Shown here in pieces: positions 665 to 34,250 of a stretch of 42,286 nt of DNA. The stretch covers positions 1 through 42,286 of the forward strand of contig CAIVGC010000043.1 of NCBI GenBank assembly GCA_903905335.1, given 5' to 3'. The notes beneath the pieces are model-generated. The model was not told where the DNA came from, made no database searches, and was given only the letters and a program-made list of their open reading frames with translations. How positions within the stretch are numbered: the stretch's first letter is position 1; each line of letters starts with the position of its first letter. The stretch is from an uncultured Methylococcaceae bacterium (GTDB lineage Bacteria; Pseudomonadota; Gammaproteobacteria; Methylococcales; Methylomonadaceae). Made by a program: the position numbers and the translations under genes.

Positions 665-1000
665 TTATTCAGTTAATAGCGCTTCTTGAACAGTCGTAGT
701 AATTACGAAGAGCTTACTGAAACCGCTAATATCAAAAACATCACGCAATGTCGTACTTAATCCACACAATCTAACCGATCCTTTAACAGCACTTATTCGC
801 TTGGCTGCCAATAAAAACACCCGTAAAGCAGCACTACTGACATAATTTACGGCAGTTAAATCAAAAATCATTTGCGTTTCACCGTTACTGATCATTTCGA
901 GGCATTGCTGCTCTAGGTCTTTCGAGTTTGAAGCGTCAACACGTCCAACTAGAGCAATCACTATAAAGTTTCCTTGTCGTGTTGATGAGATCGTTAACAT
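665..1000 (-). CDS. STAS-domain anti-sigma factor antagonist (RsbV/SpoIIAA-like)
   Basis: 111 aa; STAS pattern with phosphoacceptor-type motif DLTAVNYVSSAALRVFL. Confidence 0.85.
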   Translation of the reverse strand: MLTISSTRQGNFIVIALVGRVDASNSKDLEQQCLEMISNGETQMIFDLTAVNYVSSAALRVFLLAAKRISAVKGSVRLCGLSTTLRDVFDISGFSKLFVITTTVQEALLTE

Positions 1001-1026
1001 ATATATTTTCCCTTTTTTTGGATTGA

Positions 1027-2769
1027 TTAATCATTAAATATTAAGCGTAATTCACAACGCTCGCCATTATGACGAGTTATTACCTTATCAGCCAATCGAT
1101 AAAGTAAATAACCTGCCATCTGTATTACCGCATCTTTATCATTAAGCATCTCTTCGTGACTTGGACGATGAGTCATTATATTTAATAGACTGCCTTTGTA
1201 GCTTAGAATTACTGTAAAACTATACTCATTAAATAATGTTTGAAGTTGAATGGTGTCGCTATCTTCATTATATGTATTAATCAAACCATGATCCGTAAGA
1301 ATTTCGAATGCCTGCCAAGTTGCATACTCTGCACGTAGAACCACTTCGGGACGCGCGCCCCAACTCTTACCTTGTTGCTCGAGAAATAAGATTACATCAT
1401 CTAGTGAGCTATGCAGAGCATCGAAATTACGTTGTTCGCAGGTGTGATTTTTAATTTGAAATACCATCGATAGTAGGACAGCACTAACAATACCCAAACT
1501 GACGCCTGACGAAAAAAATGCTTTTAAAATATCAAGTGAATTATCTCTAAATAACAACGTCATCGGCTCATAACTGATACCCAAAATAAGTCCGATACCT
1601 AAAGCCAAGGTTTTTCTATTATCCAAAAGGCGAGAACTCATGACTTGAAGACCAGAAAGTGCTGTGAAAGAGGCTAAAAAAATGAGTGCTGCCCCCATCA
1701 CTGACAAAGGCAAAAGTTGCCAAAGTACGATAGCCTTAGGCATAAACGCAATTATGCCCATTAATCCAGCAAGCCAATATGCCAAATAACGACTGGTGCA
1801 TCCAGTAGATGCCGCTAAACTAACTGCCCCACCACTTGAAGTAAGAGGAAGGCCATTCATAAAAGAATTGATTATATTCGTAATACCCTCGGCCAGAATA
1901 CCTTGCTTAATTAACTGTAAATCGGGACGCTTCCAGTCTGTGTCATTGAAACGCTGTGCTGCAGCTAAGGCACCGAAACCATGCAGCGCAAGAAATAAGC
2001 CTGTAAAAATGGCCGGCAAAATTGAATATCTATCTAAAGACCAACCGATATTCATTAGCCTAGGCACATAAAATAAGGGAGCCTTATGAAATACAGCCCA
2101 ATCATTTCCTGAAATAATATCCAAAAATGTACTGGCAATGAAACCAGTCAATAACCCTAAAAACGCAGAGAACAAACGTAGATGTCCAGATGACCAAACA
2201 TTAAAACCAATCATAGTACCTAAGGTAAGGACACATAAAAGACCCTGTTGGCGCAAGGATATCCCCACCTCGACTTCTAAAACCAGCTTAATGCCGTAAT
2301 AGCCTAAGCCCAAGCCAATTAACAAAACAGCTAAACCTGCTATCTGAACTGTAAACACGCTCCTTAATCGCTGGAATAGAAGTGCAAAAACCATCTGTGC
2401 CAAGCCCATTACAGCAACCATACCAAAAACAGCACCTAAACCACTGTTAGTTTTAACCAATAATAAGCCTGAAAAAGTTGATGATGTTGCTTGTACAGGA
2501 CAAAAATACCCCGATCCGATACCAAAAATTCTGGCGGCCTGTAGTACCACGCCTAAACCTGAAGCCAATAACGTTGCGGAAATTAATTGTAAGGATTGCT
2601 CTTGATCCAGTCCTAGATTACGAGAAAAAAGGGGTGATATCACCAAATAAACACCAAGAAATGACATCTGTTGTAAAGCAAGAATCAGTAGAATTGGTAA
2701 TGGTGGCTTGTCACTTGTGCTATATAGTATGTTTTCGGGTAAGCGCATGGTATTGTTGATCTTATTCAA
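1027..2769 (-). CDS. NCS2-type (xanthine/uracil) permease with C-terminal degenerate HATPase-like domain
   Basis: N-terminal ~430 aa polytopic, NCS2-like (PLPILLILALQQMSFLGVYLVISPLF; GSGYFCPVQATSSTFSG). C-terminal ~130 aa ends with a GHKL-like layout (MAGYLLYRLADKVITRHNGERCELRLIF) but lacks clear N-box and G-box residues. Confidence 0.8.
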   Translation of the reverse strand: MNKINNTMRLPENILYSTSDKPPLPILLILALQQMSFLGVYLVISPLFSRNLGLDQEQSLQLISATLLASGLGVVLQAARIFGIGSGYFCPVQATSSTFSGLLLVKTNSGLGAVFGMVAVMGLAQMVFALLFQRLRSVFTVQIAGLAVLLIGLGLGYYGIKLVLEVEVGISLRQQGLLCVLTLGTMIGFNVWSSGHLRLFSAFLGLLTGFIASTFLDIISGNDWAVFHKAPLFYVPRLMNIGWSLDRYSILPAIFTGLFLALHGFGALAAAQRFNDTDWKRPDLQLIKQGILAEGITNIINSFMNGLPLTSSGGAVSLAASTGCTSRYLAYWLAGLMGIIAFMPKAIVLWQLLPLSVMGAALIFLASFTALSGLQVMSSRLLDNRKTLALGIGLILGISYEPMTLLFRDNSLDILKAFFSSGVSLGIVSAVLLSMVFQIKNHTCEQRNFDALHSSLDDVILFLEQQGKSWGARPEVVLRAEYATWQAFEILTDHGLINTYNEDSDTIQLQTLFNEYSFTVILSYKGSLLNIMTHRPSHEEMLNDKDAVIQMAGYLLYRLADKVITRHNGERCELRLIFND

Positions 2770-3463
2770 TCACGGGAAGAAATCCGGTATTATCTGCATC
2801 CGTAGCCCACAAGTCACCACTTTCCAAATCAAACCACCAACCGTGTAAACTAAGAGATCCAGTATCAATACGCTCTTTTATCCATGGATAGGTCAGCAAA
2901 TTATCCAATGACCCTCTGATTGCGGCACGCTCAACCAGGTGTTGATGTTCACACAGGTTTTTCATATCGTCTTCGCTTAAAGGCGAATCCTGACCCTGCT
3001 CTGACTCTGCAAGCTTATCAATAACATATCTAACGCAACCATCCATCGCGATTGACACCCAATCACCTATAAAATCACGTTGAATTTTTTGACCAGAAAT
3101 TGACTTTAATAACGCGTTAATACCACCGCAATGCGCATGACCTAAAATCACTATATGTTCAACCTCAAGATCTCGAACAGCGTATTCAATTGCAGAACGA
3201 GCTCCATCATGTTTTCCCTCCATGGCATAAGTTGGCACCAAATTAGCAACATTTCGAAGCACAAATATCTCTCCTGGCGAAGCATCAGTTAATATGGCTG
3301 GATCAACACGAGAATCGCTACAAGCAATAAGTAAAACTTTAGGGGATTGCCCGTTTGCAACTAGGGCTTTCATATCTCCTAAATCCAGTTTATAAGCGCG
3401 TTGCTGGAAACCTTTAATGCCCTCAAATAACTTGTTTAAAGTAGGATGTATAAATGCTTGCAT
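2762..3463 (-). CDS. beta-class carbonic anhydrase
   Basis: Zn-ligand motifs CSDSRVDP and HAHCGG; the likely start is M20 of the listed 252-aa ORF (position 3463). Confidence 0.92.
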   Translation of the reverse strand: MQAFIHPTLNKLFEGIKGFQQRAYKLDLGDMKALVANGQSPKVLLIACSDSRVDPAILTDASPGEIFVLRNVANLVPTYAMEGKHDGARSAIEYAVRDLEVEHIVILGHAHCGGINALLKSISGQKIQRDFIGDWVSIAMDGCVRYVIDKLAESEQGQDSPLSEDDMKNLCEHQHLVERAAIRGSLDNLLTYPWIKERIDTGSLSLHGWWFDLESGDLWATDADNTGFLPVIE

Positions 3464-3758
3464 AAAATTCCAATAATCATTATTGCTAAGATAAATAAAG
3501 TAGTTATAGATCCTGAACAATTATAATTCGATCTAAACCCAAAATAAAATAATCAATTGGGTACAATATTCTTAAATAAACTTCACTAATTTATAGTAAA
3601 CACATACCTCTTTCTTATTTTACAGATGTTACTTCGTTGTTCATTCTTTATTTTTAATAATTTTCATCAAACAATTAATTCAGCTTGATCTCTAGCATCT
3701 AACCTTCATAAGCAGTAACTTAGTCAGGATTAAAAATTTAACTTAATTCTAAGAATCC

Positions 3759-4610
3759 TTAAATATATCTTGCTCGTAATAACTCCGCTGCATTTTCATC
3801 TAATAACTCTCTTCTTCGCACATTTTCAAAACGTGAAAGTAAATCATCTACCCGTAATCGTCTTTTTTGAGCAGCATTGTAATCATGTAACACATTTCCT
3901 TTGTGCATCATCACTATACGATCACCAAGATTTATAGCTTGTTGCATAGAATGCGTTACCATTAATGTAGTAAGACGTTCTCGAGCAACAATTTCGTCCG
4001 TTAATGCAATTACTTGATCAGCGCTTTTAGGATCAAGGGCTGCAGTATGCTCATCCAGCAATAACAGCCTGGGCTTAAGCCAGGTAGCCATTAATAAAGT
4101 CAGTGCTTGACGCTGTCCTCCGGAAAGCGAACCAATGGCACAATCCAAACGATCTTCTAGACCCATTTTAAGTTCTCGTATCCTATCTCGTAATTCATCT
4201 TGTAAATGACGCGAATGTGCCCAACTTAAACCACGAAACTTACCTCGCTTGGCTGCTAAAGAAAAATTATCAAGAATTGACATTGTTGGTGCAGTACCAG
4301 AAAACGGATTTTGAAAAACCCTGCCAATTAAACTGGCTCGACGATGCTCAGGCCATTTACTTACATCATGTCCATCAAGCTCAATACGCCCAGAATCGAT
4401 AGGAAAACTTCCAGCCATGGCATTCAATAAAGTTGATTTACCAGATCCATTACCGCCAAGCACAATGACAAACGCCCCCTCCTCAATATCAAGATTAATA
4501 CCTCTCATCGGGCGCACCTCATTTACTGTACCTGAGTGGAACGTTTTATAAATATTATCAAGCTTTACCAACGCTCTATTAACCGATAATTGCGATTTAT
4601 GCTCACTCAT
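3759..4610 (-). CDS. ABC transporter ATP-binding protein
   Basis: Walker A GGNGSGKST, signature LSGGQRQAL, Walker B LLLLDEHTAALD. Confidence 0.92.
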   Translation of the reverse strand: MSEHKSQLSVNRALVKLDNIYKTFHSGTVNEVRPMRGINLDIEEGAFVIVLGGNGSGKSTLLNAMAGSFPIDSGRIELDGHDVSKWPEHRRASLIGRVFQNPFSGTAPTMSILDNFSLAAKRGKFRGLSWAHSRHLQDELRDRIRELKMGLEDRLDCAIGSLSGGQRQALTLLMATWLKPRLLLLDEHTAALDPKSADQVIALTDEIVARERLTTLMVTHSMQQAINLGDRIVMMHKGNVLHDYNAAQKRRLRVDDLLSRFENVRRRELLDENAAELLRARYI

Positions 4611-5542
4611 GCGTCCCCCTGGAATTTACGTACAGAAAGCTTACTCATCATATTCGGCAAAATTAGTGCTGCAAAAACAAAAACAGCCGTAATCAACTTA
4701 AGATCGTTAGGATTAAGACCAAATGACAAAGCAATTGCAACCAACTGTCTAAACAAAATAGAACCAATAATAGTCCCAATAATAGCGATGCCCACGCCCG
4801 TTGCACCGGTAAGTGCTTCGCCTATAATAACACTCGCCAACCCCCAAACTACCATACCAATACCCATCTGCACATCTGCAAAATTTTGATACTGAGCCCA
4901 TAATGCACCCGCTAAACCAACCAAGCCATTAGAAACTGCGAGTCCAAAAATACGATAATTTTCTACATTACCACCTAAGGCTTTAACCATTTGCGGATTA
5001 TCACCAGAAGCACGCATTGCTGTACCAATATCAGTGCGTAAAAAAATCCATAATAACAGCGCAATAAAGCTCACCAATGCAAACATGAATAACAACATAG
5101 TTAAATCTGCACTAGATACTGTCCAGCCCCACAAATTAGTTTCTGACCCAGAAAATATATAAGCACCCAGTTGCTCACAATAAGTCGATAAAGTCGCTGC
5201 ACCCAAAAAAGGGATATTACTACGCCCCATAACATGTAAATTGACTGAGTATAGTGCCGTCATAACCAAAATACCTGACAACAACGAATTAATGTGAAAA
5301 CGAGTTTGTAAAATGCCACTAACAGTGCCCGCCAGTGCCCCAGCTAGAAATCCAGCCGTTGTTGCCAAGAGTGGATTGACGCCATGCTTAACAAGTAAAA
5401 CACTCGCCACTGCTGCGCCAAAAGTCAAGGAGCCATCGACCGTAATATCCGGAATATCAAAAATCCGATAAGAAATATAAACACCTAGGGCTAATAACGA
5501 CAAAATTATTCCCAAAGTTAATGCGCCTATCAATAATGTCAT
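4607..5542 (-). CDS. ABC transporter permease (TrpXYZ/LivH-like)
   Basis: 311 aa polytopic; FDIPDITVDGSLTFGAAVASVL and SGILQTRFHINSLLSGILVM typical of permeases paired with ABC_sub_bind SBPs; ATGA-type overlap with the ATPase gene. Confidence 0.88.
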   Translation of the reverse strand: MTLLIGALTLGIILSLLALGVYISYRIFDIPDITVDGSLTFGAAVASVLLVKHGVNPLLATTAGFLAGALAGTVSGILQTRFHINSLLSGILVMTALYSVNLHVMGRSNIPFLGAATLSTYCEQLGAYIFSGSETNLWGWTVSSADLTMLLFMFALVSFIALLLWIFLRTDIGTAMRASGDNPQMVKALGGNVENYRIFGLAVSNGLVGLAGALWAQYQNFADVQMGIGMVVWGLASVIIGEALTGATGVGIAIIGTIIGSILFRQLVAIALSFGLNPNDLKLITAVFVFAALILPNMMSKLSVRKFQGDA

Positions 5543-6783
5543 TGCGGTTTTTCCTCTTTGAAGTTAATAGGTGCACACCATAAAGCACCTCTTCGCAAAT
5601 AACTTTCGCCAGCGCCAATACCGTCACGATCATCATTAAGTAAATGTAATACGCCACGAATAGTTTGAGTAAGCATTAATTTTTGCAAACTTTCCGATAA
5701 ATCAATAAGCCCTTTACATACAGGACTAAAGGGAACAACACAACTGTGAACATGTATAAACAAGTCACTATCTTTAGCTATAGGTCTTAATTGCGTTGCA
5801 AGAAGAGGCGGCGGGTCACGCGCAATTATACCAACGATTAAGCAGGTATCATCAGCATAGGCTGGTTCAGCAGTAAACAATAAATGATCACGAATAGCGG
5901 GGAAATCAAAGAAATTATCAGCAGCAGTTTCATGTGAGATTTGAGCAGCACCAATAAGGTGAGCCGTTTCTGCTAAAATAACTAGAGAAACGGTATTACT
6001 AGCACATAGCTCCATCGCTGCTTTTGCTAAATCACTTAAGCGCATTGGTGCGGTTTCCGGCATCTCTCCAAAGCGCATAAGATATCGAAACTTTCCTACT
6101 CCCTTTAGTCCATGCAACAGAGTAACCTCAGGAACCAAGTCTAGCTCTTTTTGCATCCAATCCGGATGAGCAGAATCATCTCCTGGCAAAGTAATTGCCA
6201 AACCTGATACTGCAAGTAATTCACCAAAACTCGACGCAGTAAAATTAGTGGTTCCCAAAACGCCCTGACCAATAACCCAGGTATCATTATGAACAGGTAT
6301 GGCAGTGTCATATTTTAAATCAGTAGCCAACGTTTTATCTGTATTACCCATGACTAAGCCCTGCTGAACTGAGTCGATGCTTAATGTGTATACTTCAAAA
6401 TCATTTTCACCAACTTTTATTGGACGAGATTCATTATTCTTATGTTCTTTAAGAATCGGTCTTTGATTTATTTCAGAAGAATTGAAAGTATCAAGCAACT
6501 GTTGAAACCCAACCAACTTCAAGACGTCACTGACTGTAACGGATGGATTAATAAGTCGAAAAGATCCACCAACTGCTTTCAGGCTTTTAGCCAGTATAAT
6601 CAATACCCGTATTCCAGCAGAACTCAGATAATTAACTTGTGATAAATCCAAGGCTATACGGTGAGACCCTCCATGTACAGCATCCTGTAGCGCCTTATTT
6701 ACTGTATTGCTCCAAGCAGCATCGAGTCTTCCACGCAATTCAATACGCATTTCATCGCCGTCGAGTTCAGTAATAATTTCCAT
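5539..6783 (-). CDS. STAS-domain protein with ~280-aa uncharacterised C-terminal domain
   Basis: N-terminal ~110 aa STAS (DLSQVNYLSSAGIRVLIILAKSL); C-terminal region not recognised; overlaps the permease ORF start. Confidence 0.8.
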   Translation of the reverse strand: MEIITELDGDEMRIELRGRLDAAWSNTVNKALQDAVHGGSHRIALDLSQVNYLSSAGIRVLIILAKSLKAVGGSFRLINPSVTVSDVLKLVGFQQLLDTFNSSEINQRPILKEHKNNESRPIKVGENDFEVYTLSIDSVQQGLVMGNTDKTLATDLKYDTAIPVHNDTWVIGQGVLGTTNFTASSFGELLAVSGLAITLPGDDSAHPDWMQKELDLVPEVTLLHGLKGVGKFRYLMRFGEMPETAPMRLSDLAKAAMELCASNTVSLVILAETAHLIGAAQISHETAADNFFDFPAIRDHLLFTAEPAYADDTCLIVGIIARDPPPLLATQLRPIAKDSDLFIHVHSCVVPFSPVCKGLIDLSESLQKLMLTQTIRGVLHLLNDDRDGIGAGESYLRRGALWCAPINFKEEKPQ

Positions 6784-6801
6784 CTACGTCCTCTATTATA
6801 A

Positions 6802-9768
6802 TTATTGAATATTGCTTAATCGTATGTCTGCTTTGCTTATAAGCTCTGCAGGCAATCTCATATTTAAAGCCTTTGCGTGCTCTTCACTGATGATCAGATT
6901 GATTTTTGACGTACGGGAAAATGGAATATCTTTAGGTGATTTACCTCGCATCACTTCAACTGCTTTAAGAGCAGTATCAAAGCCAGACTGATAATAATCA
7001 GTCGAATAAGCAACAGCGGCACCTTGCTCTAAACCGGATTTACTAAAAGTAAACAATGGTTTTTTAGCTCGCATGGCTGCTTGAGAAATTGCCATAAATC
7101 CAGAGACCATCTGATTGTCAATTATTTGCACCCAGGCGTCAATGGGTTGACTGGCCATTGCTAAAGCGGCATTCGGCAATTCACTTGTTGAATTTACTGG
7201 CAATTTTGATACAGAAAGTCCGTGTTGAAGAGCTACTTTTTCAAACAAATCCATATTATATACCGAGTTATCTTCACCGGGGGTGAACAAGGAACCGATC
7301 TTATGTATCTCAGGAAAGTACTGTTTAATCATCGTGATCATCTCCTCGACAGGAGCGGGAACGGAGACACCAGTGACATTTGGCAGGTGATTAGTATCAT
7401 CGGCTCCAGCTCCGGCGATTACTGCATTAGAAACCAAAGAAAATAAAACAGGTGTTTTTTTGACTTTGTGCATAACAGTTTGTAAGGTTGGCGTAGAAAT
7501 TGTCATAACTAAGTCAGTCCCATCACTACCCACCGAATCGGCAAGGCTAGACAATACGCTCATATCACCTTGTGCTGAGACATCATTTAATACAAAATCC
7601 CGTCCTGACTGCAACCCAGCTGCTTTCAGTCCATCATCAATACCATGAATAGTTTCTTCGGTCGGCTGTGACTCCATATAGGAAACACGTTTGATCTTCC
7701 ACTGATGACCTAATGGTTGTAATGTTTGATTGGCATTGACGCTAGTAGAGCTTGATGTTACCTGTGACCGCACATCATCACTAAATACAATACTCAAACG
7801 CTTTGCACTGTCCTCATTGAGTAAAGTAGATTTCTTACTGACATTACGAAAAGGCATCACTGCTGGTTTCTTGCCTGTTAATACTTGAGCCAATAGTTCT
7901 GCAGCGGCTCGACCACTTTCCTTATAATCAACACCTACGACCATTAAGGCATCATGCGCGATAAACTCAGGTTGATCCAAAATAAGTGGAATTCCTGCTT
8001 TCGCGGCTATACTAGCAACAGCATCTAATGCCTGATACATGGTATTGTCACCCACGGAAAAAATGGCTCCGACATTCTTTCCTATTAACGCCTGTGCAGC
8101 CTGCACCGCATCAGCTGTTGTATTAATAGGGACTTCTTCCAGAATAATTCCCGCTTTATCACACAAATCACGCAGCACCTCGGCAACTTTTACCGAATTG
8201 GCTTCACTTGGATTATAAAGGATACCCAGCGCATGAATATTCGGTAGCACTTTGCGAGTCAAGCCGAGCATATCCCCAACAGGCGGAAATGAGCCGATGC
8301 CAGTCAAGTTTGCTAAATGCTCTGAAAAGCTTTTCCCTGCACCAGCAGCAATAGGATCAGTAACATAAGTAAACACCACAGGTTTGTGTTTTGCCATCAT
8401 ACCAACGCCCTGCAAAACAGGAGTCGTTAACGTCAATATTGCATCAACATCACTACTATCAAGCACTTGCCCAATAGTGGGTATCTGTGCAATTTCACCT
8501 TGTGCATGCATACTTTGAAAAGTTAAATTACGACCTTCCTCCAAGCCTAAAACTTTTAATCCTTCCCGCAAACCACTCATAACTGAATCTATACCAGGTT
8601 CAGGGGCAAAATAAGCTACTCCAACTTTATATATCCGCCCAGGTTCAATCGTTATAGGAAATTCCATCGTAACCAAAGGCAATGACTCCATATTGTCGCC
8701 AGTCTTTTTTTCTATACCCTGTTCGTCAATAATGCTAAAAGCCTGAGCGTACATGTCTTTGGTAAATTGCCAGGACAGTGGTAGAGATTTACGAACTTTG
8801 TCATTTAGTAACATACGTTTAGGCATAAAATCCTTAACCGCAATAGTTGCAGGATCAACTCCACCAAGAATATCAGCGACTATACGCCCTAGTTGTTCAC
8901 CGACTTCGTGATAGTCTGCTCCAAGATCGAACAAGCTACCTTTTTTAACATGACCTGAAATATTAGAAAAAACAGGAATATGTGCCGTGCGGGCGACTTC
9001 AATTAGACTATCAATTGCCGTATTAACAGTGGCATCTCCTCCCGTCCAAAAAGCCTCCGCGCCCCGAGCCACTAAAGATTGAGCCGCTTCACGTATATCT
9101 TTGGCTTGCTCTACTGGGGCTTCAAGCAACACCAAGCCGAGCTCTATAGCGATGGCTCTTGCTTGTTTAGTACAAAACTCAGAATTAACTTCTGCAGGAT
9201 TCCACACAACACCCACTGTTTTAAGCGCAGGATTTATCTGCTTAGCCATTCGAAAAATTTCTGCAACAGGTTGTGGAGTCCCGATACCCGTTAAATATGC
9301 TGGCTTATCAAGACTATCCAGCGATTTAACACCAACCCCTGAGGCGACTGGAGTAGTAACCGCGCCAAAAACATGTGTGACCCGCCCAGTTCGATTAGCA
9401 TTAGCTAAAGCCTGCAACATAACTGTAGAAATAGAAACCGCTAAGCGGTAATCTCCACTGGTTATCTTTTGTGCCATAAGATTAGCAGTGGGTAAATCAC
9501 CTTCAGGATTATAGGTAGTAATCGCTAATTTTTGACCATCGCTGTAACCTCTAGCACTTAACGCATCAAGCATTCCAGAACGAACATCATCCATAATCGG
9601 ATTAGAGCTATGCTGCAAAATAGCCAAGGGAATGGCAGCACTTACTAATCTATTTGTCATAGATTCTGAATGACGATTATGGCGATCAGACCATAGCAAA
9701 ATTGCTGATGCTATAAATAATAAAAATAGAGAAAAAATTATGCGTTTATTAGCTTCAGTCATAGCCAT
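6802..9768 (-). CDS. Membrane-anchored ABC substrate-binding protein with three tandem SBP (ABC_sub_bind-like) domains
   Basis: 988 aa; N-terminal hydrophobic anchor; three repeats of the family pattern, starting near AILQHSSNPIMDDVRSGMLDALSARGYSDGQ, VGVAYFAPEPGIDSVMSGLREGLKVLGLEEGRN and VSYMESQPTEETIHGIDDGLKAAGLQSGRD. Confidence 0.88.
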   Translation of the reverse strand: MAMTEANKRIIFSLFLLFIASAILLWSDRHNRHSESMTNRLVSAAIPLAILQHSSNPIMDDVRSGMLDALSARGYSDGQKLAITTYNPEGDLPTANLMAQKITSGDYRLAVSISTVMLQALANANRTGRVTHVFGAVTTPVASGVGVKSLDSLDKPAYLTGIGTPQPVAEIFRMAKQINPALKTVGVVWNPAEVNSEFCTKQARAIAIELGLVLLEAPVEQAKDIREAAQSLVARGAEAFWTGGDATVNTAIDSLIEVARTAHIPVFSNISGHVKKGSLFDLGADYHEVGEQLGRIVADILGGVDPATIAVKDFMPKRMLLNDKVRKSLPLSWQFTKDMYAQAFSIIDEQGIEKKTGDNMESLPLVTMEFPITIEPGRIYKVGVAYFAPEPGIDSVMSGLREGLKVLGLEEGRNLTFQSMHAQGEIAQIPTIGQVLDSSDVDAILTLTTPVLQGVGMMAKHKPVVFTYVTDPIAAGAGKSFSEHLANLTGIGSFPPVGDMLGLTRKVLPNIHALGILYNPSEANSVKVAEVLRDLCDKAGIILEEVPINTTADAVQAAQALIGKNVGAIFSVGDNTMYQALDAVASIAAKAGIPLILDQPEFIAHDALMVVGVDYKESGRAAAELLAQVLTGKKPAVMPFRNVSKKSTLLNEDSAKRLSIVFSDDVRSQVTSSSTSVNANQTLQPLGHQWKIKRVSYMESQPTEETIHGIDDGLKAAGLQSGRDFVLNDVSAQGDMSVLSSLADSVGSDGTDLVMTISTPTLQTVMHKVKKTPVLFSLVSNAVIAGAGADDTNHLPNVTGVSVPAPVEEMITMIKQYFPEIHKIGSLFTPGEDNSVYNMDLFEKVALQHGLSVSKLPVNSTSELPNAALAMASQPIDAWVQIIDNQMVSGFMAISQAAMRAKKPLFTFSKSGLEQGAAVAYSTDYYQSGFDTALKAVEVMRGKSPKDIPFSRTSKINLIISEEHAKALNMRLPAELISKADIRLSNIQ

Positions 9769-9771
9769 TTA

Positions 9772-10550
9772 TTATCCCAACTCAAAACTTGTTATTCCAA
9801 ACACCTTATGTAAAGGCACATTTGGAATTTCTTTACTATACATACGCGCAGTTTCGAATATTTTTTGCATGTTGAATTGTTCTGCTATTTTTAATGATTC
9901 CGAGTTAGGCTCAGGAATATCCAAATAATAGAATTCACCGGCTATATTTGAGATGAGCGCCTCTAATATTTCAACAGCAATAACTTCATTATCTGCGAAC
10001 AAGGGACCTACTTTATATCCTTTTATACATTTCCTAAGAATCCCATATCCTAAAAGATGAGTTTCATTTTCGACATAATATCCAACGGAGTCGACTTGAA
10101 CAATCCAACGTCGAAGAAACTCTGTACGGGGAACCAAGAAAATTTCACGATCATATTCAAGTAATTTATTAAAATCCACATCAGCAATCGGCAAGGCTGT
10201 TGGTGATTCCTTGCTTTTCACTTTCCCTTCGAATCGAATCGAATATTTTTGTAGGCATAATTAAATCCAAAATTTTGGTAGGTCATCTGCTTTTCTAAAA
10301 CACCATCCAGACCAACATTACGATCACCTAAATATTCTAAAGCGACTTTTCCCAACTGAATACCCTGCCATTGACCACGATACTCAGGATCTATAATAAA
10401 AAGACCTATAAAGCCATAATGATCATTATAAGCAACTCCAGAGATACTCCCAATTAATTTACCATCAACCTCAATAATGAAAAATCCATTTAAGTCAGCA
10501 TGATAGAAGGCATCTGCATCATAAAGACCCGGATTCCATCCTTCCAATGC
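9772..10550 (-). pseudogene. Two-domain GNAT acetyltransferase, split by a frameshift and lacking its normal N-terminus
   Basis: ORFs 10218-10547 (EGWNPGLYDADAFYHADLNGFFI...GFIGLFIIDPEYRGQ) and 9772-10221 read as one protein in two frames; an in-frame TAG lies two codons before ALEGWNPG. Confidence 0.75.
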
Positions 10551-10709
10551 GCCCTATGAGCTTATCATTAGATACTAAGTCTTTTCAGCTCTGACTGACC
10601 AAGTTGCTAGGTAAGATATTTAATAAAACAGTTGATGTTTCTAGGCTTTAAAAAGGCCATTTTAATTAATTTCCCTATACAAATCATAAGAGAAAAAAAA
10701 TCGCCGGCT

Positions 10710-11171
10710 TCACTCTAAAAGTTTTTTTGTTAATGTCACTACATTATGATTTTTAGCATAAGAATAATCATAGGCATGCATATAACTCTTTACCAGATAG
10801 ATACCCAGCCCGCCAATAGGCCTATCCTCTAGCTCTAGTGTCAAATCCGGAGATTCACTTTGAAAAGGATCAAAGGCATCGCCATCATCTGTAATATGGA
10901 TGATAATTTCTTTGGTATTTGTTTCAATCAAAACATCTATAGCACCAGTCCGGCCGTCCGGATATCCATATTCAATAACATTAACAATTAATTCTTCCAA
11001 TACAAGATTAACTTGCATAACGACCGCGCAATCCCAACTAACTTCCTCACCAAAAAGTTCCACATTTTCAGCTAATGAAGATAATGCATCAATTTCATTT
11101 GGCAAAACGCGAATAAATTTACGATAATCAGTCACTTGATCATTGATATTAAATTCCTCATGTTTAATCAT
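10710..11171 (-). CDS. RsbW-like anti-sigma factor / serine kinase (GHKL ATPase)
   Basis: 153 aa with N-box LVLEELIVNVIEYGYPDG, G1 DDGDAFDP, G2 GGLGIYLVKSY. Confidence 0.9.
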   Translation of the reverse strand: MIKHEEFNINDQVTDYRKFIRVLPNEIDALSSLAENVELFGEEVSWDCAVVMQVNLVLEELIVNVIEYGYPDGRTGAIDVLIETNTKEIIIHITDDGDAFDPFQSESPDLTLELEDRPIGGLGIYLVKSYMHAYDYSYAKNHNVVTLTKKLLE

Positions 11172-11244
11172 TAGTGTGCCACCATATAGTTAGTATTGTA
11201 ATAGTCTGACATTTCAACTGCTCTCTCTCGTGACATATTTACCT

Positions 11245-14200
11245 TTAAAGAGGATCCCATTTTAGTACCGTGATTGTTATATCATCAGATTGTGGCGCGC
11301 CCCCAGCAAAACTAATGACACTATCAAAAATGGCTGTAACCAGTGCTTTTGCATTTTGGCTGCCGTATAATTGCACCTGTTCAAGCATTCTAGCCTCACC
11401 ATACTCCTCCCATTCTGGATTGAAAGCTTCTGTTACGCCATCGGTATATAAAATGAGACTATCTCCGGGGGCAAGCTGTTGTTTGTGCTCTTGAAAACTT
11501 ACGTCTTCGATAACGCCTAGCGCTGCATCTCCGAAGGACCTCAACATTTCGAGAGTGCCGTTAGCATGTCTCAACACAGGCGGATTATGTCCACCATTGG
11601 CATATATTAATTGACCACTGACAGGATCAAATACCGCATAAAAAACTGTGACAAACAGATACATGGGGTTTTGAGTACACAATATATCATTGGTACGTTG
11701 CAAACATTCGCTAGGCCCTGATGAAGTGGCAGCAATAAGGCGTAAATTGGTTCGTGCCACGGCCATAAAAAAAGCCGCTGGAACGCCCTTGCCTGAAACA
11801 TCGGCCATCACCAAGCCCAGTTTACCGCAAGGCAATTCGATAAAATCATAGAAATCACCGCCCATTGTCGTTGCCGGAAGCATACGAGCGGAACCTTCAC
11901 AACCATTAGCAGCAGGAAAATATGCTGGTAAAATGTCGATCTGAAGATTCCTTGCGATTTCGAGTTCACTATTGATATACCCATGAGCTTCCTTCAATTG
12001 CTCTTCGCCTCTCTTATATTCAATAGCGACACTCGCTAAGCGCGCAGATTGTTCGATAAGATAAATATCTGTTTTTTCTGGAGTCTGCTCTTCATTATGA
12101 TAGATCGAAAAAGTGCCTAATACTTGGCCCGATGCCAACCGGATAGGTTGAGACCAACATGCACCTAAACCAGCAATAACAACAACCTCTTTAAGCAATT
12201 CATAACTAGGATGCGTTAAGATATCATCAACAATAATACGCTCCGCTGTTAACGCCGCCATTCCACAAGAACCTACTCCAGAATTTATATGTAAGCCGTC
12301 AAGCGCTTTAATATAGATCTCTGGCAAGCTGGGGGCTATACCATTAACTAGACGCTGTCCTTTTTTATCTAATAACCAAATGCTACAACGCATAGCTGAA
12401 TTTAATTGCTCAACACCTAGTACGATAGCTTCAAGAATACTAGTAATAGAATTTTCACCAGTCAACATCTCCAGAGTATGGCTACGAAAATACTCATATT
12501 TTTCAGCTTTCTTTCTTGCTTTGACTTCCTGCTTAATAGATTCATTTTGTTCATTAAGCTCATCTTCAGCTAAGGACCGACTCTCCTGAACTAGAACTAT
12601 CCACCAAGCAGCGATGCTACTTAAAGCACCTAGTACAAAAAACAAATTGAATAAAGATGCAGCATATTCTGCTGCTTTATATGAATCAATATTACCGTAA
12701 CTTAATGAATACGATAGCCAAAAAGTTATAGCAACAGCCAATAACATTACACCTAAGATCAATGTAAATTGGGAAATTCTAGAAGCCGTTTGCTTCGAAA
12801 TATTATGCGTGAATATTAAGTTAAGTATTCTAGAAACTACTTGACTATAAATAGATATTTGCAGCGGTTTACATTGATCCTTACAGCTAGCATCCAAGGT
12901 GCAACATAAAGAACAAATTGGTTTTTCATAATAGGGACAATAAGCAAAATCAGTTTGTGAATACTGTTCACTACAAACGCCACAAAAACACAGTTCATCT
13001 GATTTTTCAAAGTGCACATCCTCACGTGCGATGTAATATTTACCTTTAGTTAGCTTGGCAATAACAGGCACAAGAATCAAACTAATCATCATAGCAATTA
13101 ACCAGGAGTAGGCTTGGGCAAACAGCCCAAAAACTCCAGTGAAAGCAATGATGGAAACCAGTGAGGCCAGCAACATACTGACAAAACCAACCGGATTAAA
13201 ATTGTAAAGATGTGCACGTTTAAACTCGACAATGGGTGGACTTAACTTTAAAGCTTTATTAATCGTAAGATCTGCAACGACTGCAAAAACCCAAGCAATA
13301 GCAACATTAGAATATAGCCCTAGAACTTTTTGCAGGACTTCGAATACGCCCATTTCCATTAATAATAAGGCTATACCAATATTGAAAACTAACCATACCA
13401 CCCTACCAGGATGCGCATGGGTAATCCTAGAAAAGAAATTTGACCACGCCAATGATCCAGCATAAGCATTAGTCACATTAATTTTTATTTGCGAGATAAT
13501 AACAAAAATCGTACTCACTAAAAGCGCTAGTTTTTGATGATCAAAAACATAAGTAAAAGCGACATAATACATCTGAGCTGGTTCTTTTGCTTCAGCATAA
13601 CTAAGGCCTGCTATAACGACTAAGGAAGCCAGTAACATACCCGCCATTTGCTTAAGGCAACCCAATATTATCCAGCCAGGCCCGGCCGCCAATAAGGAAA
13701 ACCACCAACTAACACGATTATTTTTATGTAGATCAGGCATAAAACGCAAATAATCAACTTGCTCGCCAATTTGAACAATTAACGATAATGAAATTCCAGT
13801 GGCGATGCCGAAATAATAAGGATCAAATTCATTGCTACCGGAAAGTTGACCCTTAAAATCAGTTAAAGCTTCTATGGTATGAGGTGATTGTGTGTAGAGA
13901 AAATAAAAAGGCAAAATCATCAATATCAGCCAAATGGGCTGTGTCCACAAATGCAAACGATTGATAGCTGTTATTCCATAAAAAACAATAGGAAAGATAA
14001 TGAGAGAACACAATAGGTAGCCCAAATATAAAGGTAGCTCCATATAAAGCTTGAGAGCTTGAGCCATAATAGACGCTTCTAAAGCAAAAAATATAAAACA
14101 AAAAGAAGCGTAAATTAACGAAGTGAGTGTAGATCCAACGTAACCAAAGCCTGCGCTACGTGTTAATAAGTCAATATCAATATTATAACGTGCGGCGTAG

Positions 14201-14472
14201 TATGAGATCGGCAACCCCGCCCCAAAAATCAAAAGCGATGCCAGCAAAATTGCCCACATTGCATTCGTATAACCATAACTAAGTAACAGGCTAGCACCAA
14301 TAGCCTCTAGCGCCAAAAATGCGGCGCTTCCTATCGCGGTATTCGCAAGCAGAAATGGCGACCATTTTCTAAAACTAGACGGTGAATAACGTAACGCATA
14401 ATCTTCAATAGATTCATTTGCAACCCAATGATTATATTGACGACGTGTTTTTTCAACCGTATGTTTTGACAT
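11245..14472 (-). CDS. NCS1-type permease fused to Cys-rich segment, GAF domain and SpoIIE/PP2C (RsbU-like) phosphatase
   Basis: 1075 aa; N-terminal ~480 aa NCS1-like transporter; CFCGVC...YCPYYEKPICSLCC...CKDQC; two further TMs; GAF-like region; C-terminal SpoIIE motifs LVMADVSGKGVPAAFFMA, LYTDGVTEAFN, SDDITITVL. Confidence 0.88.
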   Translation of the reverse strand: MSKHTVEKTRRQYNHWVANESIEDYALRYSPSSFRKWSPFLLANTAIGSAAFLALEAIGASLLLSYGYTNAMWAILLASLLIFGAGLPISYYAARYNIDIDLLTRSAGFGYVGSTLTSLIYASFCFIFFALEASIMAQALKLYMELPLYLGYLLCSLIIFPIVFYGITAINRLHLWTQPIWLILMILPFYFLYTQSPHTIEALTDFKGQLSGSNEFDPYYFGIATGISLSLIVQIGEQVDYLRFMPDLHKNNRVSWWFSLLAAGPGWIILGCLKQMAGMLLASLVVIAGLSYAEAKEPAQMYYVAFTYVFDHQKLALLVSTIFVIISQIKINVTNAYAGSLAWSNFFSRITHAHPGRVVWLVFNIGIALLLMEMGVFEVLQKVLGLYSNVAIAWVFAVVADLTINKALKLSPPIVEFKRAHLYNFNPVGFVSMLLASLVSIIAFTGVFGLFAQAYSWLIAMMISLILVPVIAKLTKGKYYIAREDVHFEKSDELCFCGVCSEQYSQTDFAYCPYYEKPICSLCCTLDASCKDQCKPLQISIYSQVVSRILNLIFTHNISKQTASRISQFTLILGVMLLAVAITFWLSYSLSYGNIDSYKAAEYAASLFNLFFVLGALSSIAAWWIVLVQESRSLAEDELNEQNESIKQEVKARKKAEKYEYFRSHTLEMLTGENSITSILEAIVLGVEQLNSAMRCSIWLLDKKGQRLVNGIAPSLPEIYIKALDGLHINSGVGSCGMAALTAERIIVDDILTHPSYELLKEVVVIAGLGACWSQPIRLASGQVLGTFSIYHNEEQTPEKTDIYLIEQSARLASVAIEYKRGEEQLKEAHGYINSELEIARNLQIDILPAYFPAANGCEGSARMLPATTMGGDFYDFIELPCGKLGLVMADVSGKGVPAAFFMAVARTNLRLIAATSSGPSECLQRTNDILCTQNPMYLFVTVFYAVFDPVSGQLIYANGGHNPPVLRHANGTLEMLRSFGDAALGVIEDVSFQEHKQQLAPGDSLILYTDGVTEAFNPEWEEYGEARMLEQVQLYGSQNAKALVTAIFDSVISFAGGAPQSDDITITVLKWDPL

Positions 14473-14613: not shown

Positions 14614-15276
14614 ATGAAAAACCATATAAACACACAGATAAAATTAATGGCTATTGTTATTTTTTTCATACTCCTGACTGGACTAAGTGCAATTTACCTA
14701 ATGGACGCAGTGCAACGTTCAGAAAACACCTCAAGCCAACAACAACAAGAATTACTGATAGCGGCATTTGAAATTGAAGAAGCGCATACGCAGTTTAAAA
14801 TTCAAGTTCAAGAATGGAAAAATCTATTGCTTCGAGGTAGAAACCCTGATGACTTTCAACATTATTTAGCTTCTTTTAATCTGCAAACAACTGAAGTACA
14901 GCAACATCTAGCAAAAGCTAAATTCGCATTTAAAGAAGATTGGGCGGGTAAATTTGATGAGCTAAGCAATAACCATAAACGCTTGATTGAAACCTATTTA
15001 ACAGCACAATCAAAAACAAAATTCGACGATCCTTCCAGTGTTCAGGCTTTGGATAATTCTCTTCGAGGCATTGACCGCCCAATGGATCTATTATTTCCCA
15101 AACTAACTCACTACCTCTCCGAGCTAGTTAAAAATAAATTAATTGAAGACAATCATTTACATGCGGCGACACATCACCAGCATGTTTGGTGGATCACTTT
15201 TTGCGTCAGCATCAGCATCATTCTAATGATCGCTTTATATTGGATCAGCTTTAAAAAAGCTATCATCAGTAAATAA
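14614..15276 (+). CDS. Two-TM periplasmic-sensor-like protein without output domain (four-helix-bundle-like)
   Basis: 220 aa; N-terminal TM, helical Q/E/K-rich extracytoplasmic region, C-terminal TM, then only ~10 residues (SFKKAIISK). Confidence 0.6.
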   Translation: MKNHINTQIKLMAIVIFFILLTGLSAIYLMDAVQRSENTSSQQQQELLIAAFEIEEAHTQFKIQVQEWKNLLLRGRNPDDFQHYLASFNLQTTEVQQHLAKAKFAFKEDWAGKFDELSNNHKRLIETYLTAQSKTKFDDPSSVQALDNSLRGIDRPMDLLFPKLTHYLSELVKNKLIEDNHLHAATHHQHVWWITFCVSISIILMIALYWISFKKAIISK

Positions 15277-15293
15277 AGTGACCAATCATTAAT

Positions 15294-16874
15294 ATGGAAA
15301 TTCTAATCAATATCCTAGCAGGATTAGGTCTTTTTTTTATCGGCATTGCCAATGTAAGCCAAGGCCTTAGACAATTAACCGGCCCAACCTTTCGCCGCCT
15401 GATGGCACGAGCCGGAGACAATCCTTTCGCGGCGGCAGCAACAGGAACCATGGCAGGCGCTTTATTACAAAGCTCCAATGCCGTGACCTTTATAATCATC
15501 GGCTTGATTAATACCAAAGCACTTGACACACGTCGTGGCCAACCTATTTTGGCATGGGCAAACGTCGGCACCTCTGCACTGGTTTTACTGGCCTCAATGA
15601 ACTTGCGACTGGTTGCACTTTTTCTGTTGGCCTCAACAGGCATTGCCATGCACTTGAGTCAGGAAAAATCAAGATATCGTTATTTAATGACAGGAATGAT
15701 GGGCCTTGGCATGCTGCTAATGGGTGCTGATTTAATCAAGGTAGGCGCCAAACCCTTACAAGATATTGAAGACTTTAGAAATATAATTGCCTTTGGTGTT
15801 CAATATCAATTACTGGCGGTCATTATCGGAATGGTATTGGCGGTCTTCACTCAAAGTACATCGACAGTTGCGGTGGCTGCAATTGGTATGACGCAATCAG
15901 GCTTGTTCGGCATTGATCAAACCTTACTACTGGTCTTTGGCGCAAATATTGGTTCTGGTATTAGCACAGCATTAATGGCAGCAAATCTAAGTGGTTCGGG
16001 CCGACAACTTGCCTATTTTCAATGCGTATTCAAAATCATTGGTTCTTTACTGTTACTTACCTTATTTTACCTAGAAAATAGTTATCATTGGCCATTACTT
16101 AAAGCTGGTGTTGCAAGCTTAGACCCAAGACTAAGCACCCAGATTGCCTTGGCTTATTTACTCATGCAATTGGCAGGTGTTATTGGTACCTTGCCAATTA
16201 GTCAATACTTAGCCACTATTTGTCGCCGACTATCACCGCCCACTAAACACGAAGAACTTTCGTGTTCACAATATTTATTTGACCAAGCTCTGGAAGATCC
16301 ACAGACAGCAATAGCACTTGCAGTATGCGAAGCCAAAGATATTGCTACTCGCATTTCTGAGCTATTACCTTACGATGGCTCAACATTGGATAATTTTGGT
16401 AGAAAAACACTACTTGACGGTAGCCTAGCCGTATTACAGGAAACTCGTGAATTTCTTGCTGAAATGCTCAACTACCAACCTGATCTAGCCGTTGTCGAAC
16501 TCAATCTTAGATTACAGACTCAATGCGAACTCATCGAACAACTAATGGAAACAACGCTTCAGATTGGACTTACACTGGATGAATTACCAGAAACTGACGG
16601 CATGAAACAAATTAGCAATAGCGTCATAGAAGGCCTGCACTTTATCCTACTAACCTTGATTGATTGTGTAATAGAAGAAGATGACGATAATATTTCCTTA
16701 TTAGAAATAATGACTGATGACCGCACAGAAATTATGCAACGTTTACGGAACTCACTCATGCAGGAAACGAATGGAATGGAGCAAGCTAATTATCAAGCCT
16801 TACTCAATGTGACTATTTTTCTGGATCGCTCCATCTGGTTGACACGCCGACTAATGTTAACACTCACGCCATAA
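15294..16874 (+). CDS. Na/Pi cotransporter family protein with C-terminal PhoU-like region
   Basis: 526 aa; duplicated QSS motifs (ALLQSSNAVTFIIIG; TQSTSTVAVAAIGM), GANIGSGISTALMA; helical C-terminus. Confidence 0.88.
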   Translation: MEILINILAGLGLFFIGIANVSQGLRQLTGPTFRRLMARAGDNPFAAAATGTMAGALLQSSNAVTFIIIGLINTKALDTRRGQPILAWANVGTSALVLLASMNLRLVALFLLASTGIAMHLSQEKSRYRYLMTGMMGLGMLLMGADLIKVGAKPLQDIEDFRNIIAFGVQYQLLAVIIGMVLAVFTQSTSTVAVAAIGMTQSGLFGIDQTLLLVFGANIGSGISTALMAANLSGSGRQLAYFQCVFKIIGSLLLLTLFYLENSYHWPLLKAGVASLDPRLSTQIALAYLLMQLAGVIGTLPISQYLATICRRLSPPTKHEELSCSQYLFDQALEDPQTAIALAVCEAKDIATRISELLPYDGSTLDNFGRKTLLDGSLAVLQETREFLAEMLNYQPDLAVVELNLRLQTQCELIEQLMETTLQIGLTLDELPETDGMKQISNSVIEGLHFILLTLIDCVIEEDDDNISLLEIMTDDRTEIMQRLRNSLMQETNGMEQANYQALLNVTIFLDRSIWLTRRLMLTLTP

Positions 16875-18284: not shown

Positions 18285-18374
18285 TTAAAACATCAATCTT
18301 CTCCGGATTAACGATTGCACCGACCTTTAAAATATTGATCTGCTTTGAAGTAACAATACCCGAGACCTTTAAAA
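18285..18374. repeat. Degenerate 42-bp tandem repeat (about two units)
   Basis: TTAAAA at 18285, 18327 and 18369 (spacing exactly 42), with similar intervening text ending GACCTTT. Confidence 0.55.
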
Positions 18375-18447
18375 GCTTAACTAGTGGTTGGACCGTCGTC
18401 GCAACAGTTGCTCAATCTAAATATGAGGTGAGTGGCCTGGTTATTGG

Positions 18448-18486
18448 CTACTACTACTACTACTACTACTACTACTATTATTATTA
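18448..18486. repeat. Trinucleotide microsatellite (CTA)10(TTA)3
   Basis: Direct reading: ten CTA units followed by three TTA units. Confidence 0.97.
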
Positions 18487-18603
18487 TTTTGACGTCGCTA
18501 TAGTCACGCCGACTGGCACTACCAATTTTTGTGCGCCTGTAAAAAAAATTAGTGGTGTAGTCGCACCTTATCAAACGTTTCGGTTGGGGTTAAAAACCGA
18601 TGC

Positions 18604-18627
18604 CGGTCGGGGTTATAACCCCGACCG
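18604..18627. repeat. 24-nt perfect palindrome CGGTCGGGGTTATAACCCCGACCG
   Basis: Self-complementary; an alternative partner TTTCGGTTGGGGTTA lies at 18578-18592. Confidence 0.95.
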
Positions 18628-18804
18628 AAACATTTAGATGCCTCAATAACTTTCGAAACGTTAAACGTAAAGGACGTGATTGCAAACCCCGCCCCGCCTC
18701 GTTACAAACCCCATCCCGCTTCAGCTCACGCTCTAAACTAAGACAATCTCGTCGTTCCGACAGATTTATCCACCGGAATGACGATTCGGTTACTAAGAGC
18801 GTCT

Positions 18805-33659: not shown

Positions 33660-34250
33660 CTATTCTAGTAAAGGAGTTAATTGTTTGTCAATCGCCTCAC
33701 GCGCTCTAAATAAACGTGAACGTATCGTACCAATAGGGCAATCCATAACTAAGGCAATCTCCTCATAACTTAAACCCTCTAATTCTCGTAACTGAAAAGC
33801 AACACGCATTTCTTCGGGTAAGTTTTCTATCGCCCTATTAAGAGTTGTGATTATTTCTTCATTTAGCAATAATTTCTCAGGCGTTTCCAGCCCTTGTAAT
33901 TGAGACATATTTCCCATGATCTCTAAATCTTGAATATCCAATTGATAATCACTATGCCTTCTAGTCCGTGAAATCAGATAATTTTTAGCGGCATTAATAG
34001 CAATGCGATACAGCCATGTATAAAAAGCGGCCTCACCTCTAAAATTACCTAACGCCCGATAAGCTTTAATAAAAGCTTCCTGAGCTACATCTTGAGCTTC
34101 ACTGGGATCTTTAACATAACGATTAACCAACTGAATAATTTTATGCTGATATTTAATCACCAAAAAATCAAAGGCAGCCTTATCACCTTGCTGAACCCGC
34201 GACACTAATTCTTCGTCTAATTGTTCGCATTTTCTGGGCTGATTAATCAC
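33660..34250 (-). CDS. rpoE: RNA polymerase sigma-E factor
   Basis: Sigma-70 region 2 (AQDVAQEAFIKAYRALGNFRGEAAFYTWLYRIAINAAKNYLI) and region 4 (LPEEMRVAFQLRELEGLSYEEIALVMDCPIGTIRSRLFRAREAI). Confidence 0.96.
   Translation of the reverse strand: MINQPRKCEQLDEELVSRVQQGDKAAFDFLVIKYQHKIIQLVNRYVKDPSEAQDVAQEAFIKAYRALGNFRGEAAFYTWLYRIAINAAKNYLISRTRRHSDYQLDIQDLEIMGNMSQLQGLETPEKLLLNEEIITTLNRAIENLPEEMRVAFQLRELEGLSYEEIALVMDCPIGTIRSRLFRAREAIDKQLTPLLE

Follow-up and report, generated by a model that had tools for sequence, protein, structure and literature searches.

Partner switching is best known as a means of controlling gene expression, and the locus described here raises the question of what such a cascade might control when its genes lie amongst those of transporters. 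The locus occupies positions 665 to 14,472 of a stretch of 42,286 nucleotides (the window), which is contig C43 within the 3.17-Mb draft genome of an uncultured Methylococcaceae bacterium. A preliminary description, made from the sequence alone, had recognized in this block a complete set of phosphatase, kinase, and antagonists linked to transporters on one strand, with no sigma factor in the cluster. Domain and motif searches bear this out: all of the named genes are present, every one is on the minus strand, and none of the open reading frames (ORFs) of the block is a sigma factor gene. In order of transcription, the block encodes a sensor-phosphatase with NCS1-like, GAF, and SpoIIE domains, an RsbW-like kinase, a broken GNAT acetyltransferase, a triple substrate-binding protein, a STAS protein with an additional domain (STASx), an ATP-binding cassette (ABC) permease and ATPase, a beta-carbonic anhydrase, an NCS2 permease with a tail, and a stand-alone STAS protein (STAS1); the broken GNAT gene, the Cys-rich linker and GAF domain of the phosphatase, and the C-terminal domain of STASx had been missed. 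Judged from gene order, the association between partner switching and transporters is real, conserved, and beyond chance neighbourhood. We give slightly better than an even chance to the proposal that sensing of urea or an amide sets STAS phosphorylation through RsbW and SpoIIE, and that the STAS proteins gate the importers post-translationally.

The importer consists of a triple tandem ABC_sub_bind (TrpX-type) binding protein (6802..9768; Pfam, NCBIfam NF041285, and PDB 3lft, 3lkv, and 6hni), STASx (5539..6783, 414 residues), a BPD_transp_2 permease (4607..5542; Pfam 2.7e-33), and an ATPase (3759..4610; Pfam 1.6e-27). Binding protein, permease, and ATPase together form a TrpXYZ-type importer set, a family name that is no proof of a tryptophan substrate. 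The genes are tightly spaced, with 18 bp between binding protein and STASx and gaps of -4 bp between STASx and permease and between permease and ATPase; an overlap of 4 bp, as between the STASx and permease genes, is common for subunits. The preliminary description had made the system depend on whether its homologues keep their neighbours or are scattered, and the neighbours are conserved. The order binding protein-STASx-permease-ATPase is kept both in Methylococcales-like relatives, a label that rests on the methanotroph-like character of the Gammaproteobacteria fetched by similarity (among them Crenothrix and a methanotrophic symbiont of Bathymodiolus), and in Nitrospirota. In the Nitrospirota locus L148 it is followed by SpoIIE, RsbW, and STAS, all on one strand, and in L044 the same gene set is split into two blocks. 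The ABC permease is 60-66% identical to that of the window in Nitrospirota, the ATPases of L044 and L059 are 63-65% identical, and the STASx of L044 is 32% identical. Within the order, 10 of 151 genomes, counting the one that holds the window, encode STASx complete with its C-terminal domain, and in the retrieved neighbourhoods its gene accompanies those of the TrpXYZ-type importer. Elsewhere, STASx was found in one of 399 Pseudomonadota genomes (again the window's own) and in 4 of 246 genomes of the phylum of the Nitrospirota locus. Because STASx was seen in only 1/399 and 4/246 genomes, the full set is rare. Two variations were seen next to STASx: a fusion of binding protein and ABC permease (L149 10583-14398, 1271 residues), and, in Nitrospirota, a protein of ~530 residues with no Pfam match lying 5' of STASx (L045 6081-7646, L148 10817-12412, L152 10496-12097, and L153 5314-6960), of which the copy translated, from L045, carries an HENSHH motif.

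STASx comprises a STAS domain (residues 1-104) with the candidate phosphoacceptor Ser55, followed by a conserved C-terminal domain of ~300 residues that matches none of the families searched. The Pfam STAS scores of the two STAS proteins of the block are 6e-19 and 6e-16. Their candidate phosphoacceptor serines, pointed out previously, hold up, as Ser54/Ser55 is invariant among 13 STASx sequences and Ser56 of STAS1 is visible in the sequence. An AlphaFold model, built on an alignment of four rows, gave a usable STAS domain whose predicted fold matches RsbV/SpoIIAA, and a weak C-terminal part (mean 66.7). The ATPases also set this group apart. Thirteen STASx-linked ATPases have in common a C-terminal extension, with AAxxLrxxY at its end (least clear in L149), that is missing from all five STAS-less TrpXYZ ATPases compared; certain residues in the body of the ATPase are group-specific as well. 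One of the thirteen, L059, lies so near the end of its contig that STASx itself cannot be seen. Unlike the window, the STAS-less TrpXYZ examples inspected encode only one binding protein each and lack both a STAS gene and the ATPase extension, although they share the same binding-protein, permease, and ATPase families; their operons run binding protein-permease-ATPase, with one inspected example ordered differently.

A STAS protein encoded with an ABC system, an ATPase with a C-terminal extension, and a candidate phosphoacceptor are also features of MlaFEDB (PMC7367683). In MlaFB, the STAS protein MlaB binds the helical subdomain of the ATPase MlaF, and the C-terminal extension of the ATPase docks at the STAS interface, where it is needed for function but dispensable for MlaB binding in pull-downs (PMC7367683). 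A phosphomimetic substitution of MlaB at the equivalent residue, Thr52, weakens ATPase binding; the same paper raises the possibility of MlaB phosphorylation, reports no experimental evidence for it, and calls regulation an open question (PMC7367683). In contrast to MlaFEDB, the importer in the window is of the TrpXYZ type, its STAS protein has an extra domain of ~300 residues, and kinase and phosphatase genes lie in the same block. By family assignment, the likeness to MlaFB is functional and not homologous, as a BPD_transp_2 permease with ABC_sub_bind proteins lies outside the Mla/MCE family.

The kinase of the block (10710..11171, 153 residues) matches HATPase_c_2 at 1e-21, and its N, G1, and G2 ATP-binding motifs are all present, in keeping with its earlier reading as an intact RsbW-like enzyme. 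SpoIIE and RsbW genes adjoin the STASx block in the window and in L116, L117, and L119. Orthologues of RsbW were found in six relatives, with identities to the window of 63% (G433), 60% (G406), 60% (G326), 53% (G408), 48% (G309), and 46% (G399). In three of these genomes (G406, G309, and G399) the importer lies without a kinase and the RsbW orthologue is at another locus (46-60% identity versus ~30% for paralogues); these in-trans loci also carry STAS1, SpoIIE, and a histidine kinase, and that of G309 additionally holds carbonic anhydrase, NCS2-tail, and STAS1 genes. The corresponding STASx identities are 66% (G433), 65% (G326), 62% (G406), 59% (G408), 51% (G309), and 50% (G399), so that the two proteins rank nearly alike, a pattern compatible with the association but no proof of it, as species relatedness would give the same ranking. 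The window's genome has a second SpoIIE-RsbW-STAS set, with a PAS-SpoIIE phosphatase, a few kilobases from ABC-type genes (L132, G000:C361, 929-8607).

At the downstream end of the block are closely packed genes for the beta-carbonic anhydrase (2762..3463, assigned by NCBIfam; the ORF is open to 3520, and ATG 3463 is the likely start by comparison with L115), the xanthine/uracil-type NCS2 permease (1027..2748; Pfam PF00860 4e-35), and STAS1 (665..1000; Pfam, TIGR00377). The tail of the permease (1030-1416), previously described as HATPase-like, is RsbW-like by profile comparison (92%, with shuffled controls at or below 1.5%), with no direct Pfam match and with degenerate ATP-binding motifs. 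A related NCS2 protein beside STASx in L123 bears an HATPase_c_2 tail that Pfam does recognize. NCS2-tail genes occur with STAS, RsbW, and SpoIIE in Kaistia, Bosea, and Mesorhizobium, loci that were located through SpoIIE and are hence biased, and also in G091, which was located through the NCS2 tail itself. A search for the tail on plasmids gave zero matches.

The sensor-phosphatase (11245..14472, 1075 residues), delimited by Pfam, hhalign, and motifs, has an NCS1-like membrane domain (residues ~1-475), a Cys-rich linker that is kept in all rows readable in frame, transmembrane helices, a GAF domain (674-818; 1.1e-14), and a SpoIIE/PP2C domain (883-1072, at 11257..11826; E = 1.2e-50) in which the metal-binding motifs GGDF, DVSGKG, TDG, and SDD can be read. 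The earlier reading of an NCS1-like permease fused to SpoIIE gains support from hhalign against PF02133 members (93.9% over 371 columns, with shuffled controls at or below 3.1%) and found no direct support elsewhere: Pfam, its PF02133 profile included, gave zero matches at E<=1, and a PDB search was likewise empty. The first ~657 residues are about 44-55% identical to many proteins of ~1150 residues which, where scanned, are histidine kinase hybrids, mostly carrying a response-regulator domain, and the sensor part is 69% identical to an NCS1-PAS-GGDEF-EAL protein in L006. The NCS1-like part most likely serves as a receptor and not as a third means of uptake, leaving the ABC importer and NCS2 of the three transport systems originally counted. 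Carrier-like receptors on signalling proteins are known from CbrA, an SLC5-STAC-histidine kinase (PMC13022988), and from an Amt-histidine kinase (PMC5764959); the one in the window differs in its NCS1-like carrier, its Cys-rich linker, and its SpoIIE effector, its kin carrying a histidine kinase or GGDEF-EAL. In a Bathymodiolus methanotrophic symbiont, an NCS1-like sensor gene is broken (L007 7281-8510).

The fusion had been put forward as a co-occurring anchor for neighbourhood searches, a role it does not fill, as it was seen complete in the window only and is not conserved alongside the importer. Because relatives pair the same RsbW with other sensors, either a histidine kinase/response regulator beside GAF-SpoIIE or a response-regulator-SpoIIE protein, the conserved core is RsbW-STAS-importer. 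In a tree of SpoIIE domains, that of the window clusters with its own paralogue on C354 and one Crenothrix sequence (100/99), and the phosphatases beside orthologous RsbW in G433, G326, G408, and G406 form a separate group (100/99). An orthologous phosphatase across all loci was rejected on this placement. Since the window's SpoIIE falls outside the clade of its relatives' RsbW-linked phosphatases, the sensor-phosphatase has most likely been exchanged, with kinase, STAS, and importer left in place.

What the sensor might bind is suggested by the neighbours of its kin. In 28/28 neighbourhoods of hybrid-kinase sensors examined, there is a formamidase, a urea/formamide-type ABC importer, or urease. 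With a slightly stricter gene set, 28/28 sensor loci versus 2/72 control loci were positive, the sensor loci being top hits that include related families, and so not fully independent, and the controls a convenience set. Both positive controls proved to be in-trans RsbW/STAS switch loci, one in G309 and one in G399; each has a gene for a UrtA-like binding protein downstream of STAS1, co-directional with STAS1 and the carbonic anhydrase. The two UrtA-like proteins score 446 and 449 bits against TIGR03407, under the cut-off of 493, and the solved structures closest to them include urea-binding proteins and AmiC. The same pairing of sensor and urea/amide genes appears in plasmid records of Burkholderia vietnamiensis, Methylovirgula, Klebsiella, Rhizobium, and Mitsuaria. 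Because the NCS1-like sensor kin and the UrtA-like proteins in switch loci agree, we infer from these two different sensor types that the ligand is urea or a small amide; the nucleobase type first proposed finds no support. Among Klebsiella plasmids, 342 records matched the NCS1-type sensor domain; in the single record looked at more closely (L137, pTHO-017-1), the sensor is a hybrid kinase and lies with a formamidase and a urea-type ABC importer. The L006 protein (9998-13657) is a urea/amide-type NCS1-like sensor fused to PAS-GGDEF-EAL, with agmatine-deiminase-like and carbon-nitrogen hydrolase genes nearby.

Gating of transporters by phospho-STAS is the best-supported candidate mechanism. 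The NCS1-like membrane domain would bind urea or a small amide and, by way of the Cys-rich linker and the GAF domain, tune the SpoIIE phosphatase. RsbW would phosphorylate STASx and STAS1 on their STAS domains, with SpoIIE reversing the reaction. STASx would act as a fourth subunit of the importer and, in one of its phosphorylation states, attach to the ATPase to switch uptake on or off, and STAS1 would alternate between RsbW and the RsbW-like tail of NCS2; by binding STAS without phosphorylating it, the tail would turn the carrier into a switched partner. The carbonic anhydrase may serve the imported or hydrolysed substrate. We infer ligand binding, phosphorylation, binding of STAS to the transporters, the contribution of the carbonic anhydrase, and the direction in which uptake would change. 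The full scheme, in which serine phosphorylation by RsbW gates the importer through its STAS subunit and NCS2 through its pseudo-RsbW tail, under a urea/amide receptor, is plausible but falls somewhat short of even chances. Like RsbU/RsbW/RsbV (SpoIIE/SpoIIAB/SpoIIAA), the system has a SpoIIE phosphatase, an HATPase_c_2 kinase with intact motifs, and STAS proteins with a conserved serine; it differs in having no sigma factor in the cluster, STAS inside transporter operons, and an NCS2 with a kinase-like tail.

Several observations weigh against this mechanism. Neither urease nor formamidase nor an Urt/Fmd binding protein was found in the host genome, the search for the binding protein having been run without a positive control. 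In G373, G302, and G425, ABC-STASx genes are present but no near orthologue of RsbW was found (the contig of G425 ends at that point), G465 has NCS2-tail genes away from any switch genes, the C-terminal domain of STASx modelled alone scored 38 in AlphaFold and gave no usable fold, and the comparison of ATPase extensions covers only five STAS-less members. Furthermore, in L150-L153, STASx stays with SpoIIE, RsbW, and STAS where no ABC genes are nearby. This last arrangement also fits the main rival, in which signalling runs in reverse: the importer with its tandem binding protein and NCS2 would sense, STASx and STAS1 would report occupancy or flux to RsbW, and the output would lie elsewhere. 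Tandem binding domains with no matching extra permeases, lone ABC_sub_bind proteins directly adjoining the switch histidine kinase in L117 and L195, the UrtA-like proteins within switch loci, and other flux-sensing systems in which transporters report to regulators are all consistent with it. We nevertheless consider it rather unlikely, as the phosphatase in the window comes with a membrane sensor of its own, the block has no other conserved output gene, and ABC-STASx can persist while the switch sits at another locus.

That RsbW instead holds a sigma factor or other regulator encoded elsewhere, with the transporters merely co-located targets, seems improbable. RsbW, STAS, and SpoIIE are the standard parts of sigma control, and there is a precedent in Synechocystis Slr1861 of the icfG operon, an anti-SigC factor whose antagonist is encoded outside the operon (PMC12329169). 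The icfG cluster also has one kinase, one phosphatase, two STAS proteins, and a link to carbon nutrition, but there the kinase controls a sigma factor, and the description mentions no transporter that carries a STAS or kinase-like domain (PMC12329169). Such an output would leave the STAS-ABC subunit operon and the pseudo-RsbW tail on NCS2 with no role. No sigma gene was seen in the block, and none was noticed at the homologous loci, which were scanned with a restricted query set and no search aimed at sigma factors; one of the RpoE type lies 20 kb off at 33660-34250, with its own downstream partner. A non-sigma output has a parallel in SiaABC(D) of Pseudomonas aeruginosa, a Gram-negative set of SpoIIE phosphatase, kinase, and antagonist that, unlike the window, controls biofilm formation and not a transporter (PMC7647112). 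A grouping of unrelated neighbours could draw on the fusion being complete only in the window, a decaying GNAT gene, and at least two transcription units, yet it is highly improbable: conserved gene order disfavours it, as do linkage in two phyla, tight spacing, and co-occurrence in trans.

A single long operon was dropped, as gaps and the broken GNAT favour several units. Spacing is 73 bp between SpoIIE and RsbW, 162 bp from RsbW to the broken GNAT gene, 3 bp from there to the binding protein, and 238 bp between ATPase and carbonic anhydrase. Because of these gap sizes and the broken GNAT, the block probably forms two or three transcription units (SpoIIE-RsbW, binding protein-STASx-permease-ATPase, and carbonic anhydrase-NCS2-STAS1). 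The GNAT gene (9772..10547, minus strand) is truncated and frameshifted into two ORFs by comparison with L115, where its counterpart of 280 residues is unbroken, and is probably non-functional. Beyond a small membrane sensor-like ORF (14614-15276) adjoining the sensor-phosphatase lies a divergent Na/Pi cotransporter-like gene (15294-16874); Na/Pi genes are likewise direct neighbours of RsbW/STAS/SpoIIE in L039 and L040 and, in L013, are found close to SpoIIE/RsbW, and a Na/Pi cotransporter is possibly a third transporter type on such switches. A short ORF (18335-18637) contains a series of tyrosine codons, probably a simple-sequence repeat, and an Rfam search over the window gave zero matches.

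No description of partner switching with ABC transporters or NCS1-type urea sensors was found in the open-access literature. The comparison identifies a widespread family of carrier-derived receptors tied to urea/amide use and coupled to three kinds of output (histidine kinase, GGDEF-EAL, and SpoIIE); one of its members is carried by many Klebsiella plasmids. The block places a STAS subunit, a candidate kinase, and a candidate phosphatase together, making the question of MlaFB regulation directly testable. If the proposed mechanism is true, this would be partner switching in which the switched partners are transporters instead of sigma factors.

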